A stretch of DNA of 64,000 nucleotides. Origin: Lysobacteraceae bacterium (GTDB lineage Bacteria; Pseudomonadota; Gammaproteobacteria; Xanthomonadales; Xanthomonadaceae). Made by a program: the position numbers and the translations under genes. Positions 8,497 to 52,502 of this stretch are shown in pieces. The notes under the pieces were generated by a model. That model made no database searches, was not told the DNA's origin, and saw nothing but the letters and a program-made list of their open reading frames with translations. The DNA lies in assembly GCA_031263725.1 (NCBI GenBank), contig JAISFF010000053.1, forward strand, positions 1 through 64,000. Reading direction: 5' to 3'. Each line of letters opens with the position of its first letter. The first letter of the stretch is position 1.

Positions 8497-8526
8497 CGCG
8501 CCGGTGGCATCCGGCGCGCCCTTTCT
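8497..8526 (+). terminator. Rho-independent terminator after ribBA
   Basis: A perfect 8-bp stem CGCGCCGG/CCGGCGCG (8497-8504, 8511-8518) with a six-base loop, followed by a short T-rich run (CCCTTTCT). It lies 20 bases behind the ribBA stop and separates ribE-ribBA from ribH. Confidence 0.7.
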
Positions 8527-44743: not shown

Positions 44744-45454
44744 CTATAACGTCCGTGCGCAAACCCATGCATCGATCCGCCGCGCACCGGCCGCACGCAA
44801 TCCTCTGGCCGCCGCCTCCAGCGTGGCGCCCGTGGTCATCACATCATCCAGCAGCACGACATGCGCGGGCGGAGGCGCGCGGACCGTGAAGGCCGCCCGC
44901 AGGTTCCGCCTTCGTTCCGCCGCATCGAGCTCGGATTGCGGTCTGGTGGAACGCACCCGGCGCAACAGGTCCCCACGCAGGGGAATCCGCAGCATCCGTG
45001 CCAGCGGCCGCGCCAGTTCCAACGCCTGATCGTAGCCGCGCGACGACAAACGCCGCCAGTGCAACGGTATCGGAACGATGGCGTCGGGACGCGGCAACCC
45101 GGCGCAATCTCCCGCCATCAGCATCGACAGCAGACGGCCCGCGGCCAGATCCCGATGGAATTTGAAACGCGGCAGCAACCGGTCCAGCGGAAAGCGGTAG
45201 GAGAAAACCGCATGCGTTTCATCCAGCGGCCGATTGCTCCGGCGCAGGCATGGGCCGCAGACGGGATTCGACGAAGCCAGCGGCAAAGCGCAGATCCGGC
45301 AGGCCGGAACATTCCAGGGCAATGCGGCATGACAGGCGCGGCACAGGTCGCGTCCTTCAGCGCCGGGTTCCTCGCATATCAGGCAGCGCAACGGCAGCAG
45401 GCATTCGCCAAGCACGCCCAATCGGTTCCGCCACTTGTAAACAATATCTATCAT
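44744..45454 (-). CDS. comF: ComF-family phosphoribosyltransferase-like protein
   Basis: 236 residues. N-terminal zinc-finger cysteines CLICEEPGAEGRDLCRACHAALPW and CRICALP..NPVCGPC are followed by the PRTase domain with PIPLHWRRLSSRGYDQALELA and the PRPP loop VVLLDDVMTTGATLEAAARGL. ComF proteins assist uptake of transforming DNA, with unclear chemistry. The start codon lies inside the BirA-like operator at 45435-45468, divergent from bioB, so biotin may influence its expression. Confidence 0.93.
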   Translation of the reverse strand: MIDIVYKWRNRLGVLGECLLPLRCLICEEPGAEGRDLCRACHAALPWNVPACRICALPLASSNPVCGPCLRRSNRPLDETHAVFSYRFPLDRLLPRFKFHRDLAAGRLLSMLMAGDCAGLPRPDAIVPIPLHWRRLSSRGYDQALELARPLARMLRIPLRGDLLRRVRSTRPQSELDAAERRRNLRAAFTVRAPPPAHVVLLDDVMTTGATLEAAARGLRAAGARRIDAWVCARTL

Positions 45455-45468
45455 GTATAAGTTTACAT
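45435..45468. promoter_or_regulatory. BirA-like biotin operator between comF and bioB
   Basis: TTGTAAACA and AGTTTACAT form an inverted repeat with a 16-bp spacer, close to the bacterial BirA consensus TTGTAAACC-N15/16-GGTTTACAA. It overlaps a TATAAG that could be the bioB -10. The left arm falls in codons 4-7 of comF and the spacer contains its ATG. BirA binding would therefore block both divergent promoters. Confidence 0.85.
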
Positions 45469-45538
45469 ATCCAGGCGCGGCGGTGACATCCCAACATGCC
45501 GATTCCGCGTCCCCCTGACAGTCGGAAAACCCCTTTCA

Positions 45539-46552
45539 ATGACGACCGAAATCCGCCACGACTGGCGTCGGGAAGAAATCCTCGCGCTGTTCGAACTGCC
45601 TTTTCCCGAATTGCTGTACCAGGCCGCCAGCGTGCACCGCTTGCATTTCGATCCCGCGCAGGTACAGGTATCGACCCTGCTGTCGATCAAGACCGGCGGC
45701 TGTCCCGAGGACTGCGCCTATTGCCCGCAATCGCAGCGCTACCAGACCGGCGTGCGGGTACAGAAACTGATGAGCACCGAAGATGTGCTGGAAAACGCGC
45801 GCGCCGCCAAGGCCGCTGGCGCATCGCGCTTTTGCATGGGCGCCGCCTGGCGCAGCCCCAAGCATCGCGACATGCCGAAAGTGGCCGCCATGATCCGCGC
45901 GGTAAAAGCGCTGGGGCTGGAAACCTGCGCGACGCTGGGCATGCTCGACCGCCGCCAGGCGCAAACGCTGAAGGAGGCCGGGCTGGACTACTACAACCAC
46001 AACCTCGACACCGCACCCGAGTTCTACGAGGACATCATCCACACCCGCGACTACCAGGAGCGGCTCGATACCCTGAAGCATGTCCGCGACGCCGGGCTGC
46101 GCACCTGCTGCGGCGGCATCGTCGGCATGGGCGAATCGCGCGTGCAGCGAGCCGGGCTGCTGCGGACGCTGGCCAACCTGCCCGCGCATCCGGATTCGGT
46201 GCCGATCAACCGGCTGGTCCAAGTCAGCGGCACGCCATTGCACGGAGTCGCTGAACTGGACCCGTTCGAATTTGTCCGCACCATCGCCGTGGCGCGTCTC
46301 ATCATGCCGCGTTCGATGGTGCGGTTGTCCGCCGGGCGCGAGACCATGAACGACGAATTGCAGGCCCTGTGTTTCATAGCCGGGGCCAATTCGATCTTCC
46401 ATGGCGACAAGCTGCTGACTACCGCCAACCCGGAAGCCGGCTACGACTGGATCCTTTTCGGGCGCCTGGGCTTGCAACCCATGCCCTATGCGGGCGTCAC
46501 CGTGCATGCGGATATCGGCTGCCCGGGCAATGCCCGCGATAACGCGGCATAA
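45539..46552 (+). CDS. bioB: Biotin synthase
   Basis: A radical-SAM enzyme inserting sulfur into dethiobiotin; 337 residues. The [4Fe-4S] motif is Cys55-x3-Cys59-x2-Cys62 in [13 protein letters not shown]. Further family blocks are [48 protein letters not shown] and [34 protein letters not shown] closes it. It is the first gene of the biotin cluster, behind a BirA-type operator. Confidence 0.97.
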
Positions 46553-46594: not shown

Positions 46595-47782
46595 ATGGCA
46601 CGGCCCGACCTGTTCGAACGCATTCGCTCCCTGCGTGACGCGCGCATCGCCCAGAACCGTTTGCGCGTCCGCCGTACCGTGACCCGCCGCGACGGCATCA
46701 CCCTGGATATCGATGGCCATCGCTATGCCAATTTCAGCGGCAACGACTATCTGGGGCTGGCGCAGCAGTTCGAGATCATCGACGCGCTACAGGACGGCAC
46801 CGCGCGCGAAGGCGTGGGCGCCACGGCGTCGCCCCTGATCTGCGGCTACGACATCAGCCACGAGAATCTCGAACGCGAAGTGGCCGAGTGGATCGGTTAT
46901 CCGCGCGGGCTGCTGTTCGGCAGCGGCTTCATGGCCAATCTGGCCGTGCAGCAGGCGCTGCTGACGGAAGAAAACGATGTCTGCGTGCAGGACCGGCTCA
47001 ATCACGCCAGCCTGATCGATGCCACCCATCTGGCCGGTTGCCGCCTGCGCCGGTATCCGCATCTGGATGCCGAAGGCGCAATCCGGCAGCTGAAAGGCAC
47101 GCCCGGCGGCGCCGCGATACTGGCCACCGACGGCGTTTTCAGCATGGACGGCGATATCGCGCCGCTACAGGCGCTGAGTCTGGCGGCGAAGGTGCAGCAG
47201 GCGCTGCTGTATGTCGATGATGCGCACGGCGTCGGCGTGCTCGGTCCGGACGGACGCGGCAGCGTCGCCGCCGCCGGCCTGGGACCGGCCGAAGTGCCGC
47301 TGCTGCTGGTGCCATTGAGCAAGGCGCTGGGCAGCTATGGCGCCGTGGTGCTCGGCAGCGAAGCGCTGATCAACCATCTGATCGAGACCTCGCGCCCCTA
47401 TGCCTACAGCTCGGCGTTGCCGCCCGCGTTGGCCACCGCCGCGCTGACAGCGGTGCGTTCGGCGCGGCGCGACGAATGGCGGCGCGAGCGCCTGAAGGAA
47501 CTGATCGGCGTGTTCCGCGAGGAATGCCAACGCTATGGGATAGAGCCGCTGATGTCGGATACGCCGATCCAGCCATTGCTATGCGGCAGCGAGACCGAAG
47601 CGGTCGCGTTGTCCGCCGCGATGGAACGGGAAGGCTATCTGACGGCGGCGATCCGGCCTCCGACCGTGCCCGAGGGCACATCGAGAATTCGCATCACCCT
47701 GTCGGCATTGCACGCGCCACAGCAGGTACAGCGCATGGTGACAGTCCTGGCGCGATGCCGCGAGGAACTCCCCAAACACTGA
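46595..47782 (+). CDS. bioF: 8-amino-7-oxononanoate synthase
   Basis: A PLP enzyme joining pimeloyl-ACP/CoA and alanine; 395 residues. It shows [11 protein letters not shown], the [19 protein letters not shown] block, [15 protein letters not shown] and [17 protein letters not shown] with the PLP lysine. Near the C-terminus is the [18 protein letters not shown] segment typical of this family. It follows bioB by 42 bases with GGGGAAT upstream of the ATG. Confidence 0.96.
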
Positions 47783-48070: not shown

Positions 48071-48832
48071 ATGTACATCCAAACCTACGGCAGCGGCCCC
48101 GATCTGGTGATGATCCACGGCTGGGGACTGCACGGCGGCATCTTCACCCCGCTGGCCGAACTGCTGGCTTCATCGTTCCGCCTGCACTTGGTCGATCTGC
48201 CCGGCCACGGCTACAGCCATGACGATCCCGTGCCCCTGGCGCTGGATACGTGCGTTAATGCGATCGTGGCCGAAGTGCCGGAAGCGATCTGGCTGGGCTG
48301 GTCGATGGGCGGATTGTTCGCCATCCATGCGGCCGACACCCTGCCTTCGGTACGCGGCCTGATCCTGGTGGCCTCGACGCCGAAATTCGTGCGTTCCGCG
48401 GATTGGCCCAACGCCACCGAACCGCGCATGCTGGTGCAATTCCGCGACGATCTGCAGCGCGACTATGGCGCGACCCTGGATCGATTCCTGGCACTGGATA
48501 CGCTGGGTTCAGAACATGCGCAGAGCAAACTGCGCACCATGCGCGCCGCACTGGCCGAACGCGGTGCGCCGGCGCCCGCGGCCCTGCAAGCCGGGCTGCA
48601 GCTTCTCGAGGACACCGATCTACGGCCACGCCTGCCAACGTTGAAAGTGCCGAACCTGTGGCTGTCCGGCCGGCGCGATCGCCAGGTCGCCTCGGCGGCC
48701 ATGCGCGCGGCGGCCGACATGACACCGTGGTCCCGCTTCTTCGAAGTGCCCGGCGGCGGTCATGCGCCCTTCCTCGGCCAGACCGCCACCGTCGCCGAAC
48801 AGATTCTGGCCGCCGCGGGCGAAATGCGCTGA
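48071..48832 (+). CDS. bioH: Pimeloyl-ACP methyl ester esterase
   Basis: An alpha/beta hydrolase that ends the BioC-BioH pimeloyl pathway by removing the methyl ester. 253 residues; oxyanion segment MIHGWGLHGGIF and nucleophile Ser78 in GWSMGG. Asp is in LSGRRDRQV and His in GGGHAPFL, the complete triad. The stop shares one base with the bioC start (TGATG), firmly linking the two. The 288 bases before it, after bioF, hold no gene; bioD and bioA are not in the window. Confidence 0.94.
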   Translation: MYIQTYGSGPDLVMIHGWGLHGGIFTPLAELLASSFRLHLVDLPGHGYSHDDPVPLALDTCVNAIVAEVPEAIWLGWSMGGLFAIHAADTLPSVRGLILVASTPKFVRSADWPNATEPRMLVQFRDDLQRDYGATLDRFLALDTLGSEHAQSKLRTMRAALAERGAPAPAALQAGLQLLEDTDLRPRLPTLKVPNLWLSGRRDRQVASAAMRAAADMTPWSRFFEVPGGGHAPFLGQTATVAEQILAAAGEMR

Positions 48833-49719
48833 TGGATTCCATCTTCGACCGCCGCCACATCCGCCATGCCTTCGGTCGCGCCGCCGGCAGCTACAACGAG
48901 GCCGCCGCGCTGCAGCAGGAAGTGCGCAGCCGCCTGCTGGAATCGCTGGAATCCCTGAAAGACCGGACGCCGCAAACCGTGCTCGATATCGGCAGCGGCC
49001 CGGGCCACGCGGCCGCCACGATGCGCAAGCGTTGGCCGCGCACGCAGGTGATCGCATTGGACATCGCACTGCCGATGCTGCAGGAAGCCAGGAAACAGAA
49101 TTCCTGGTGGCGTCCGTTCCAGCGCATCTGCGCCGACGCCGGCGCGCTGCCATTGGCCGACCAGGGCGTGGATGTGATCTTCAGCAATCTCTGCCTGCAA
49201 TGGGTCGAAGATCTGCCGCGCGCGTTGAACGAATTCCGGCGCGTGTTGCGGCCCGGCGGCCTGCTGCTCTGCTCGACTTTCGGCCCGGACACCCTGATCG
49301 AGCTGCGCGAAGCCTTCGCCACGACCGACGCTGTCCCGCATGTCAGTCCATTTCCGGGCATCAGCCTGTTCGGCGATACCCTGATGGCGGCCGGTTTCCG
49401 CAATCCGGTGCTGGATCGCGACCTGTTCACGCTGACCTATCCCGATCTGCCCGCCTTGATGCACGAGTTGCGCGACATCGGCGCGACCAACGCCTTGCGA
49501 AATCGCCGCCGCACACTGACCGGCCGTCAACGTTTCACGGCCGCCACGAATGTGTACGAAACGTTGCGCCGCGACGACGACACCTTGCCCAGTTCCTGGG
49601 AGGTCATCTACGCCCAGGCCTGGGCGCCGCCACCGGGTGCGCCGATCCGTGGCGAGGATGGCGGCGATGTCGTCAGCGTGCCGCTGACCTCGATCCCGAT
49701 CCGGCGGAAGACGCCATGA
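48832..49719 (+). CDS. bioC: Malonyl-ACP O-methyltransferase
   Basis: A SAM methyltransferase that starts pimeloyl synthesis by masking malonyl-ACP; 295 residues. FDRRHIRHAFGRAAGSYNEAAALQQEV at the N-terminus and motif I VLDIGSGPGHAAATMR. Motif III/IV is DVIFSNLCLQWVEDLPRALNEFRRVLRPGGLLLCSTFGPDTLIEL, followed by the BioC-specific LRDIGATNALRNRRRTLTGR. Translationally coupled to bioH. Confidence 0.95.
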   Translation: MDSIFDRRHIRHAFGRAAGSYNEAAALQQEVRSRLLESLESLKDRTPQTVLDIGSGPGHAAATMRKRWPRTQVIALDIALPMLQEARKQNSWWRPFQRICADAGALPLADQGVDVIFSNLCLQWVEDLPRALNEFRRVLRPGGLLLCSTFGPDTLIELREAFATTDAVPHVSPFPGISLFGDTLMAAGFRNPVLDRDLFTLTYPDLPALMHELRDIGATNALRNRRRTLTGRQRFTAATNVYETLRRDDDTLPSSWEVIYAQAWAPPPGAPIRGEDGGDVVSVPLTSIPIRRKTP

Positions 49720-50213: not shown

Positions 50214-50564
50214 ATGAAGATCATGAATGCCCATAGCGACGAGGCCATTCTCCGCGAACTGGGAACGCGGTTGGCCGCGACGAGACTGGCGCAGAACCTG
50301 ACCCAGGCGCAGCTGGCGGAACAGGCCGGCGTTTCCAAGCGCACCGTGGAGCGGCTGGAATCCGGCGAAGTCGCATTGCAGCTGACCGGCCTGATCCGGG
50401 TATGCAGGGCGCTGGGCCTGCTGAACCGGCTGGATCTGCTGGTGCCCGAACCCGTGTCCAGCCCGCTGGCGCAACTGAAGCGCAAGGGTCGGACCCGCCA
50501 GCGCGCTTCCGGCCAGCATGTCGCCGAAACGCGCGCACCGTGGCAGTGGGGTGACGACTCGTGA
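50214..50564 (+). CDS. hipB: HipB-type antitoxin/repressor (XRE family)
   Basis: 116 residues with a central helix-turn-helix (ATRLAQNLTQAQLAEQAGVSKRTVERLESGEVALQLTGLIRVCRALGLL). It is longer than E. coli HipB (88), with a basic C-terminal tail (KRKGRTRQRAS). The next gene is a hipA that begins inside this stop (GTGA), the standard antitoxin-toxin order. It probably represses the operon by binding a nearby palindrome. Confidence 0.88.
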   Translation: MKIMNAHSDEAILRELGTRLAATRLAQNLTQAQLAEQAGVSKRTVERLESGEVALQLTGLIRVCRALGLLNRLDLLVPEPVSSPLAQLKRKGRTRQRASGQHVAETRAPWQWGDDS

Positions 50565-51868
50565 TCACGGCCGAGGTCCGCTTGTGGGGACGCCGCATCG
50601 GCGCGGTATCCGCGCCGGAGGAAGGCGGTGTGGCCGCATTCGAGTACGTGCCGGAGTTCGTCCACAGTGGCATCGAGGTGTCGCCGCTGATGATGCCGCT
50701 GGCGAACACGATCTATCGTTTTCCCGAGTTGCCGTGGCCGACGTTTCACGGCCTGCCCGGGTTGCTGGCCGACTCCCTGCCCGACCGCTTCGGCAATGCG
50801 TTGATCGATCAATGGCTGGCACAGCAAGGACGCGCCCCGGACAGCTTCAGCGCGGTGGAACGCCTTTGCTACATCGGCCAACGCGGCATGGGCGCGCTGG
50901 AATTCGCGCCGACGCTCGGCCCACGCGCACAGCGCGCCAGCAAGATCCGGCTCGACGCCCTGGTGCGGTTGGCATCGGACATCCTGTCGCAGCGCGAGGA
51001 CCTGCGCGGCAGCTTCGACAGCCCCGCGCGAGAGAAGGCGTTGAACGACATCCTGCGTGTCGGCACTTCGGCTGGCGGCGCGCGCGCGAAGGCGGTGATC
51101 GCCTGGAATCCGCATACGCACGAAGTCCGTTCGGGCCAGTTGGAAGCCGACGACGGTTTTGAATACTGGCTGCTGAAATTCGATGGCGTCAGCGGCAACC
51201 GCGATCGCGAGCTGGATGATCCGAAAGGCTTTGGCGCCATCGAATATGCGTATTCGCTGATGGCGCGTGCCACCGGCATCGAAATGAGTCCCTCGCGGCT
51301 GCTGGAGGAACACGGCCGCCGTCACTTCATGACGCGCCGCTTCGACCGCCTGCCCGGAGGCGGCAAGCTGCACATGCAATCGCTGGCGGCGCTGGCGCAC
51401 TTCGACTTCAACCAGGCCAATGCCCACTCCTACGAACAGGCGTTGCAGACGATCCGCCGGCTGGACCTGCCGATGAGCGTGTTGGAGGAACAGTTCCGCC
51501 GGATGCTGTTCAACGTCGTCGCCCGCAACCAGGACGACCATGTCAAGAACATCGCGTTCCTGATGGACAAGCAGGGCGTCTGGTCGCTGGCGCCCGCCTT
51601 CGATGTCACCTACAGCTACAATCCCAGCGGCGACTGGACCGCGCGCCACCAGATGAGCCTCAACGGCAAGCGCGACGGTTTTTCCCTGGCCGATTTCCAG
51701 GCCGTGGCCCGCTCGGCATTGCTCAAGCGCGGCCGCGATCGCGCCATCCTGGAAGAAGTGCTCGCGGCCGTGGCGCAATGGCCCGCATTCGCGGAACAGG
51801 CGGGCGTGCCCGAATCCTGGGCCGGGCAGATATCACGCCAGCACCGCACGGGTTTCCCGGACGCGTGA
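50561..51868 (+). CDS. hipA: HipA-type serine/threonine kinase toxin
   Basis: 435 residues from a GTG start overlapping hipB. N-terminal HipA_N domain (LTGxxIG-like RLWGRRIGAVS, then LPGLLADSLPDRFGNALIDQWL). The kinase domain has the gated loop GTSAGGARAKAVIAW, the ATP-binding YWLLKFDGV, and FMTRRFDR. The catalytic loop ARNQDDHVKNIAFL carries Asp325, then comes the metal ligand in PAFDVTYSYN. All residues are present, so the toxin should be active on aminoacyl-tRNA synthetases such as GltX, as in characterised HipAs. The exact target is unknown. Confidence 0.92.
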   Translation: MITAEVRLWGRRIGAVSAPEEGGVAAFEYVPEFVHSGIEVSPLMMPLANTIYRFPELPWPTFHGLPGLLADSLPDRFGNALIDQWLAQQGRAPDSFSAVERLCYIGQRGMGALEFAPTLGPRAQRASKIRLDALVRLASDILSQREDLRGSFDSPAREKALNDILRVGTSAGGARAKAVIAWNPHTHEVRSGQLEADDGFEYWLLKFDGVSGNRDRELDDPKGFGAIEYAYSLMARATGIEMSPSRLLEEHGRRHFMTRRFDRLPGGGKLHMQSLAALAHFDFNQANAHSYEQALQTIRRLDLPMSVLEEQFRRMLFNVVARNQDDHVKNIAFLMDKQGVWSLAPAFDVTYSYNPSGDWTARHQMSLNGKRDGFSLADFQAVARSALLKRGRDRAILEEVLAAVAQWPAFAEQAGVPESWAGQISRQHRTGFPDA

Positions 51869-51950: not shown

Positions 51951-52502
51951 ATGACGAATCCCGCATCCCGCGACACGCGGAAGCTCGTTGCCGCAATGGC
52001 ATTCGCGGCGGAGCGCCATCGTGGACAGCGGCGCAAGGACGCCGAGGCCTCGCCTCATATCAACCATTCCGTCGCATTGGCCGCCGTACTGGCCGACGAA
52101 GGCGGTATCGACGATGCGGATGTTCTCTGCGCGGCGCGGCTGCATGGCATCATCGAAGACACCGATACCACGGCCGATGAGATCGCGCAGTGTTTCGGCA
52201 ACCGGATCACCGATATCGCGTTGGAAGCCAGCGACGACAAATCCCTCGCCAAGGACGAACGCAAGCGCCGGCAAATCGCACATGCGCCACGGCTCTCGCA
52301 CGCGGCCAAGCTGGTCAAGCGGACCGACAAGATCTGCAACCTGTGCGACATCCTGACCATGCCGCTGTCGGATCGGCCGTTGCAGCGCCGGCAAGCCTAT
52401 TTCGATTGGGCCGCCGCGGTGGTGGACGGACTGCGCGGCGTTCATCCGGAACTGGAACGCATCTTCGACGGACCGTATGTGCGGAAAGAGGCCATGGCAT
52501 GA
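51951..52502 (+). CDS. HD-domain protein, RelA/SpoT hydrolase (MESH1)-like, with altered HD motif
   Basis: 183 residues of the small alarmone hydrolase-like family. FAAERHRGQRRKD and the first metal His in SPHINHSVALAAVLA are present. The usual HDTIEDTDTT reads HGIIEDTDTT, so the HD aspartate is replaced by glycine. The later Asp in VKRTDKICNLCDIL is kept. With one of four metal ligands lost, Mn-dependent hydrolysis of (p)ppGpp or NADPH is doubtful. It is located next to hipBA (82 bases), whose toxin acts through (p)ppGpp signalling in E. coli; the link is speculative. Confidence 0.8.
   Translation: MTNPASRDTRKLVAAMAFAAERHRGQRRKDAEASPHINHSVALAAVLADEGGIDDADVLCAARLHGIIEDTDTTADEIAQCFGNRITDIALEASDDKSLAKDERKRRQIAHAPRLSHAAKLVKRTDKICNLCDILTMPLSDRPLQRRQAYFDWAAAVVDGLRGVHPELERIFDGPYVRKEAMA

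Follow-up and report, generated by a model that had tools for sequence, protein, structure and literature searches.

A biotin synthesis cluster and a divergently oriented comF gene lie side by side in the window, by which we mean the whole 64,000-nucleotide stretch of DNA from a Lysobacteraceae bacterium that was analysed. On the plus strand bioB, encoding biotin synthase (45539–46552, an equivalog match), is the first gene of the regulated cluster, and bioF (46595–47782), bioH (48071–48832) and bioC (48841–49719) follow. The minus strand carries comF (GntX/ComFC-like, 44744–45454). Its product combines a double zinc ribbon with a phosphoribosyltransferase domain, the combination that defines the ComF/GntX family; DZR_2 and Pribosyltran both scored above Pfam cut-offs, and the GntX and comF NCBIfam models matched below theirs. 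ComEC is encoded in the same genome, and natural transformation requires ComFC in the species studied (PMC9005727; PMC7811196). Just past the biotin cluster, on the plus strand, a HipB-like HTH protein is followed directly by a HipA-like kinase with a GTG start at 50561 (50214–51868; NCBIfam matches below cut-offs), and the two are a probable HipBA-type toxin–antitoxin pair. A further plus-strand product (51951–52502, 183 amino acids) matches only the N-terminal part of RelA/SpoT and is possibly a small alarmone hydrolase.

Between bioB and comF, at 45435–45468, lies an inverted repeat, TTGTAAACA-N16-AGTTTACAT, composed of a left half-site (45435–45443), a 16-bp spacer (45444–45459) and a right half-site (45460–45468). 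BirA operators were defined here as TTGTAAACC-type inverted repeats with 9-bp half-sites 15–16 bp apart, and in both repeat and spacing 45435–45468 is such an element; its half-sites agree with the E. coli-type consensus TTGTAAACC-N16-GGTTTACAA at 15 of 18 positions, and the spacing is identical (16). It also stands upstream of biotin synthesis genes, with bioB 70 bp away and bioF, bioH and bioC beyond. Pattern searches found no second occurrence of TTGTAAACA-N16-AGTTTACAT in the window, where shuffled sequence gave an expectation of 0, and across the 2.64 Mb genome TGTMAAC-N18-GTTKACA was matched exactly at this position only. When 3 mismatches were allowed, the whole genome yielded 13 places, among which 45435–45468 ranked first (1 mismatch), compared with 25 for a backward control pattern. 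The genome encodes a single BirA, 325 amino acids long and located at 8503–9477 of contig C73, in which HTH_11 (residues 10–57) is joined to BPL and BPL_C domains, as in a bifunctional BirA; the closest PDB entry is E. coli BirA (1bia), aligned over the whole length. The N-terminal winged-helix domain, on whose presence the earlier note had made its proposal depend, is therefore there.

A further line of evidence came from relatives. BirA proteins and regions upstream of bioB were compared in a set drawn by kinship, with 47 Xanthomonadales genomes in the final table; the HTH was scored as kept when the BirA match began at or before residue 20, and as lost when it began at or after residue 51. 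An operator was found upstream of bioB in 35 of 35 genomes whose BirA has the HTH and in 0 of 12 whose BirA does not, with no discordant genome (35/0/0/12; Fisher p = 2e-11, counting genomes as independent, uncorrected for relatedness). A wider set, arranged on a 63-sequence bioB tree, gave 54/8 with 1 discordant, and the HTH had been lost on 3 separate occasions, each time together with the operator. As a pattern this co-loss is strong; its statistical support on the tree is modest, 3 events being too few for a sign test. It was nonetheless the association with the BirA HTH, together with uniqueness in the genome, that led us to discard the idea of a chance match or of a site for some other regulator: the half-sites do fall 3 short of a full 18 matches, but the shuffles, the sole exact genomic occurrence, the exact spacing and the 35/0/0/12 table all speak against it, and we consider it extremely improbable. 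We conclude that 45435–45468 is a real BirA operator, as had been suggested from its fit to the biotin operator, and that the BirA of this genome is its predicted ligand.

Within the Xanthomonadales the BirA DNA-binding domain, and with it the operator, has been lost repeatedly (G044/L030, L029, L018/L025/L033, G048, G057, G068, G069 and others). Judged from these sequences, biotin control in the genomes without the HTH is either gone or exerted by another regulator. The sole discordant genome, L011 (Lysobacteraceae bacterium NML08-0793; ~2885–2918), keeps the BirA HTH and the right half (−35), while the left half-site is absent. G035 (same genus) and L154 have a degenerate left half (CTGTATATA) despite a BirA with the HTH, possibly reflecting an early loss of biotin control or an altered BirA specificity.

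The two half-sites differ in their fate. Several genomes lacking the HTH (L025, L033, L030/G044, G068 and G087) have preserved the right half, whereas their left half has degenerated. The left half is thus maintained for the sake of BirA, and the right half serves BirA and the promoter alike. In relatives the right half holds a nearly invariant TTGACA, and a −10 box (CAGACT, TATCAT or CATAGT) follows 16–17 bp further on, outside the operator. From this comparison we take the right half to be the −35 element of bioB, and the counterpart in the window is TTTACA (45462–45467). The earlier note had the operator covering the bioB −10; this placement is not supported, since the relatives put the −35 there. 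In the window itself the bioB −10 is poor, and the promoter is weak whether its −10 or its −35 is placed in the operator; a simple scan of 45300–45700 found no good sigma-70 promoter. The same scan found no promoter for comF. GGTTGAC, present in the left half when the comF strand is read, is unlikely to be a −35 for comF, given that the left half decays with HTH loss when the right is often kept. In relatives the comF strand shows a −10-like signal at +17 to +20. It might suggest a bidirectional −10 common to bioB and comF, but it overlaps that of bioB and may simply mirror it.

The operator also extends into comF. As had been noted from the window alone, the comF start codon (ATG, 45452–45454, minus strand) lies in the spacer, and codons 4 to 7 run through the left half-site: codon 4 contributes its final base, codons 5 and 6 (GTT TAC, for V and Y) fall wholly within it, and codon 7 supplies two bases. 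This overlap is not peculiar to the present genome but is conserved across Gammaproteobacteria. Of 42 loci at which comF is near, 38 have the left half-site in one and the same comF frame, encoding V-[DYN] (I-D once), although in these 38 anything between 10 and 34 codons separates it from the zinc-finger cysteines. A frame that stays constant while the codon distance to the zinc finger varies shows that the left half-site is truly coding. In the 4 exceptions comF begins just past the operator, as it does in the relatives L019, L044, L055 and L067.

For a class-wide view, genomes were drawn evenly from the Gammaproteobacteria, 185 in one draw and 369 in another, and 63 operator loci examined. 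A divergent comF adjoins 46 of the 63 (32 with a strong BioB match opposite, 14 with a weak one only), and in 44 of these 46 the half-site lies in the common comF frame. The start codon is fused directly to the half-site in 31 of the 46, as ATG GTT [TGA]AC (for example ATG-GTT-TAC), across many families. The spacer, too, often serves translation of comF: a Shine–Dalgarno match of at least 4 bases was present there in 19 of 32 start-fused loci (ATG or GTG), compared with 8.8 in shuffles. Biotin operator and comF translation start thus form one element in many families, and the overlap is both old and widespread in Gammaproteobacteria. The window is a derived case, in which the ancestral ATG became ATT and the comF start moved three codons upstream; the change to ATT accounts for the left half ending in A and not in the consensus C. 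It is also conceivable that translation of comF really begins further downstream, for instance at TTG codon 12 or GTG codon 14, so that the operator belongs to a leader or promoter and not to coding sequence. No clear Shine–Dalgarno sequence precedes the ATG at 45454, and the four relatives in which comF begins just past the operator offer a precedent; a downstream start is at odds, however, with the half-site keeping a single reading frame at 38 of 42 loci and with the fused ATG-GTT-[TGA]AC of many families, and we judge it improbable. Were it correct, the operator would be nearer to a comF promoter, not further from it.

These arrangements bear on whether biotin controls comF. We lean towards the reading that the BirA operator controls bioB and most likely the divergent comF as well, the comF part drawing on the geometry of the site and on the parallel with E. 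coli bioA/bioB. With the comF start codon inside the operator, and a fused start kept in 31 of 46 loci, the operator is in a position to affect comF transcription. In the ancestral layout a single stretch of DNA contains half-site, comF Shine–Dalgarno and start codon. Given an ordinary 5′ leader, RNA polymerase at the comF promoter would therefore overlap the operator, and bound BirA should exclude the polymerase or stop it early. When biotin is plentiful, a BirA–biotinoyl-AMP dimer would occupy both half-sites, so that the bioB −35 region (within the right half) and the comF start region on the opposite strand would both be covered. The bound dimer would stop comF transcription at initiation or early in elongation; with biotin scarce, bioB and comF would both be released. 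In E. coli, BirA represses both divergent transcripts, bioA and bioB, from a shared operator (PMC5438404), and a sequence comparison placed the bioA start codon 7 bp beyond bioO. Since the same operator in the same placement represses both genes there, co-repression of comF is the best reading of the present locus.

A less probable but serious alternative is that the operator serves bioB only, the overlap with comF being a by-product of a compact divergent region, and that comF is read through, or transcribed from an unimpeded promoter, with no meaningful effect of biotin. Of the 12 genomes without BirA DNA-binding domain and operator, 9 still have comF beside bioB; the linkage of the two genes therefore outlives the operator and does not need biotin control, which counts against co-repression. 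The operator also remains with bioB in four genomes in which comF lies ~280 bp away (L034, L036, L037 and G089), and the absence of a comF promoter from the scan of the window points the same way. On the other side, 31 of the 46 class-wide comF neighbours have the start codon fused to the half-site, and the comF Shine–Dalgarno is often in the spacer, so that a comF promoter with an ordinary leader would have to sit where bound BirA and polymerase collide; and the E. coli gene that starts 7 bp away is itself repressed (PMC5438404). Co-repression of bioB and comF remains the reading that we prefer.

The closest known counterpart is E. coli bioO, between bioA and bioBFCD, which has the same half-sites and 16-bp spacer and likewise forms one operator between divergent genes, with bioB on one side and a bifunctional BirA. 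It differs in that the second gene here is comF and not a biotin gene, and in that the comF start and first codons lie inside the operator, whereas the bioA start lies outside. Rodionov et al. reportedly described, in 2002, BirA operators upstream of bioB or bioBFHCD in other Gammaproteobacteria. The same operator class, controlling biotin synthesis, is described in the main text of a 94-genome reconstruction of BirA regulons (Leyn et al. 2016, PMC5343134); that main text deals with biotin genes and makes no mention of comF or of an overlap with a start codon. A comF homologue divergently placed beside biotin genes has been recorded before, as the comFC/gntX–bioH synteny used to recognize bioH (Akatsuka et al., as cited in PMC5438404). 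The neighbour in that case is a free-standing bioH that is not BirA-regulated, and the account given there does not mention an operator overlap. A search for papers on BirA or biotin together with comF or competence, covering searchable literature (mostly open papers, in their main text), found no description of the overlap between operator and comF start. The operator class and the comF/bioH synteny are thus already known; the start-codon overlap is, within that literature, apparently new.

BirA regulons are thought to contain biotin genes and a few fatty-acid genes. Here comF, too, is probably under the control of biotin supply, by analogy with the E. coli operator, and through it DNA uptake may be linked to biotin. 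The broader proposal, about as likely as not, is that comF is an unrecognized member of the BirA regulon in many gammaproteobacterial families, with one element acting as operator, bioB −35 region and comF translation start, and with biotin status setting the level of a transformation protein. Such co-control could be the reason for comF remaining next to biotin genes. The overlap also shows how the first residues of a neighbouring protein, here M-V-[YND], can be set by an operator. With a conserved operator joined to the comF start, finally, a vitamin switch is predicted to reach the DNA-uptake machinery in many bacteria.
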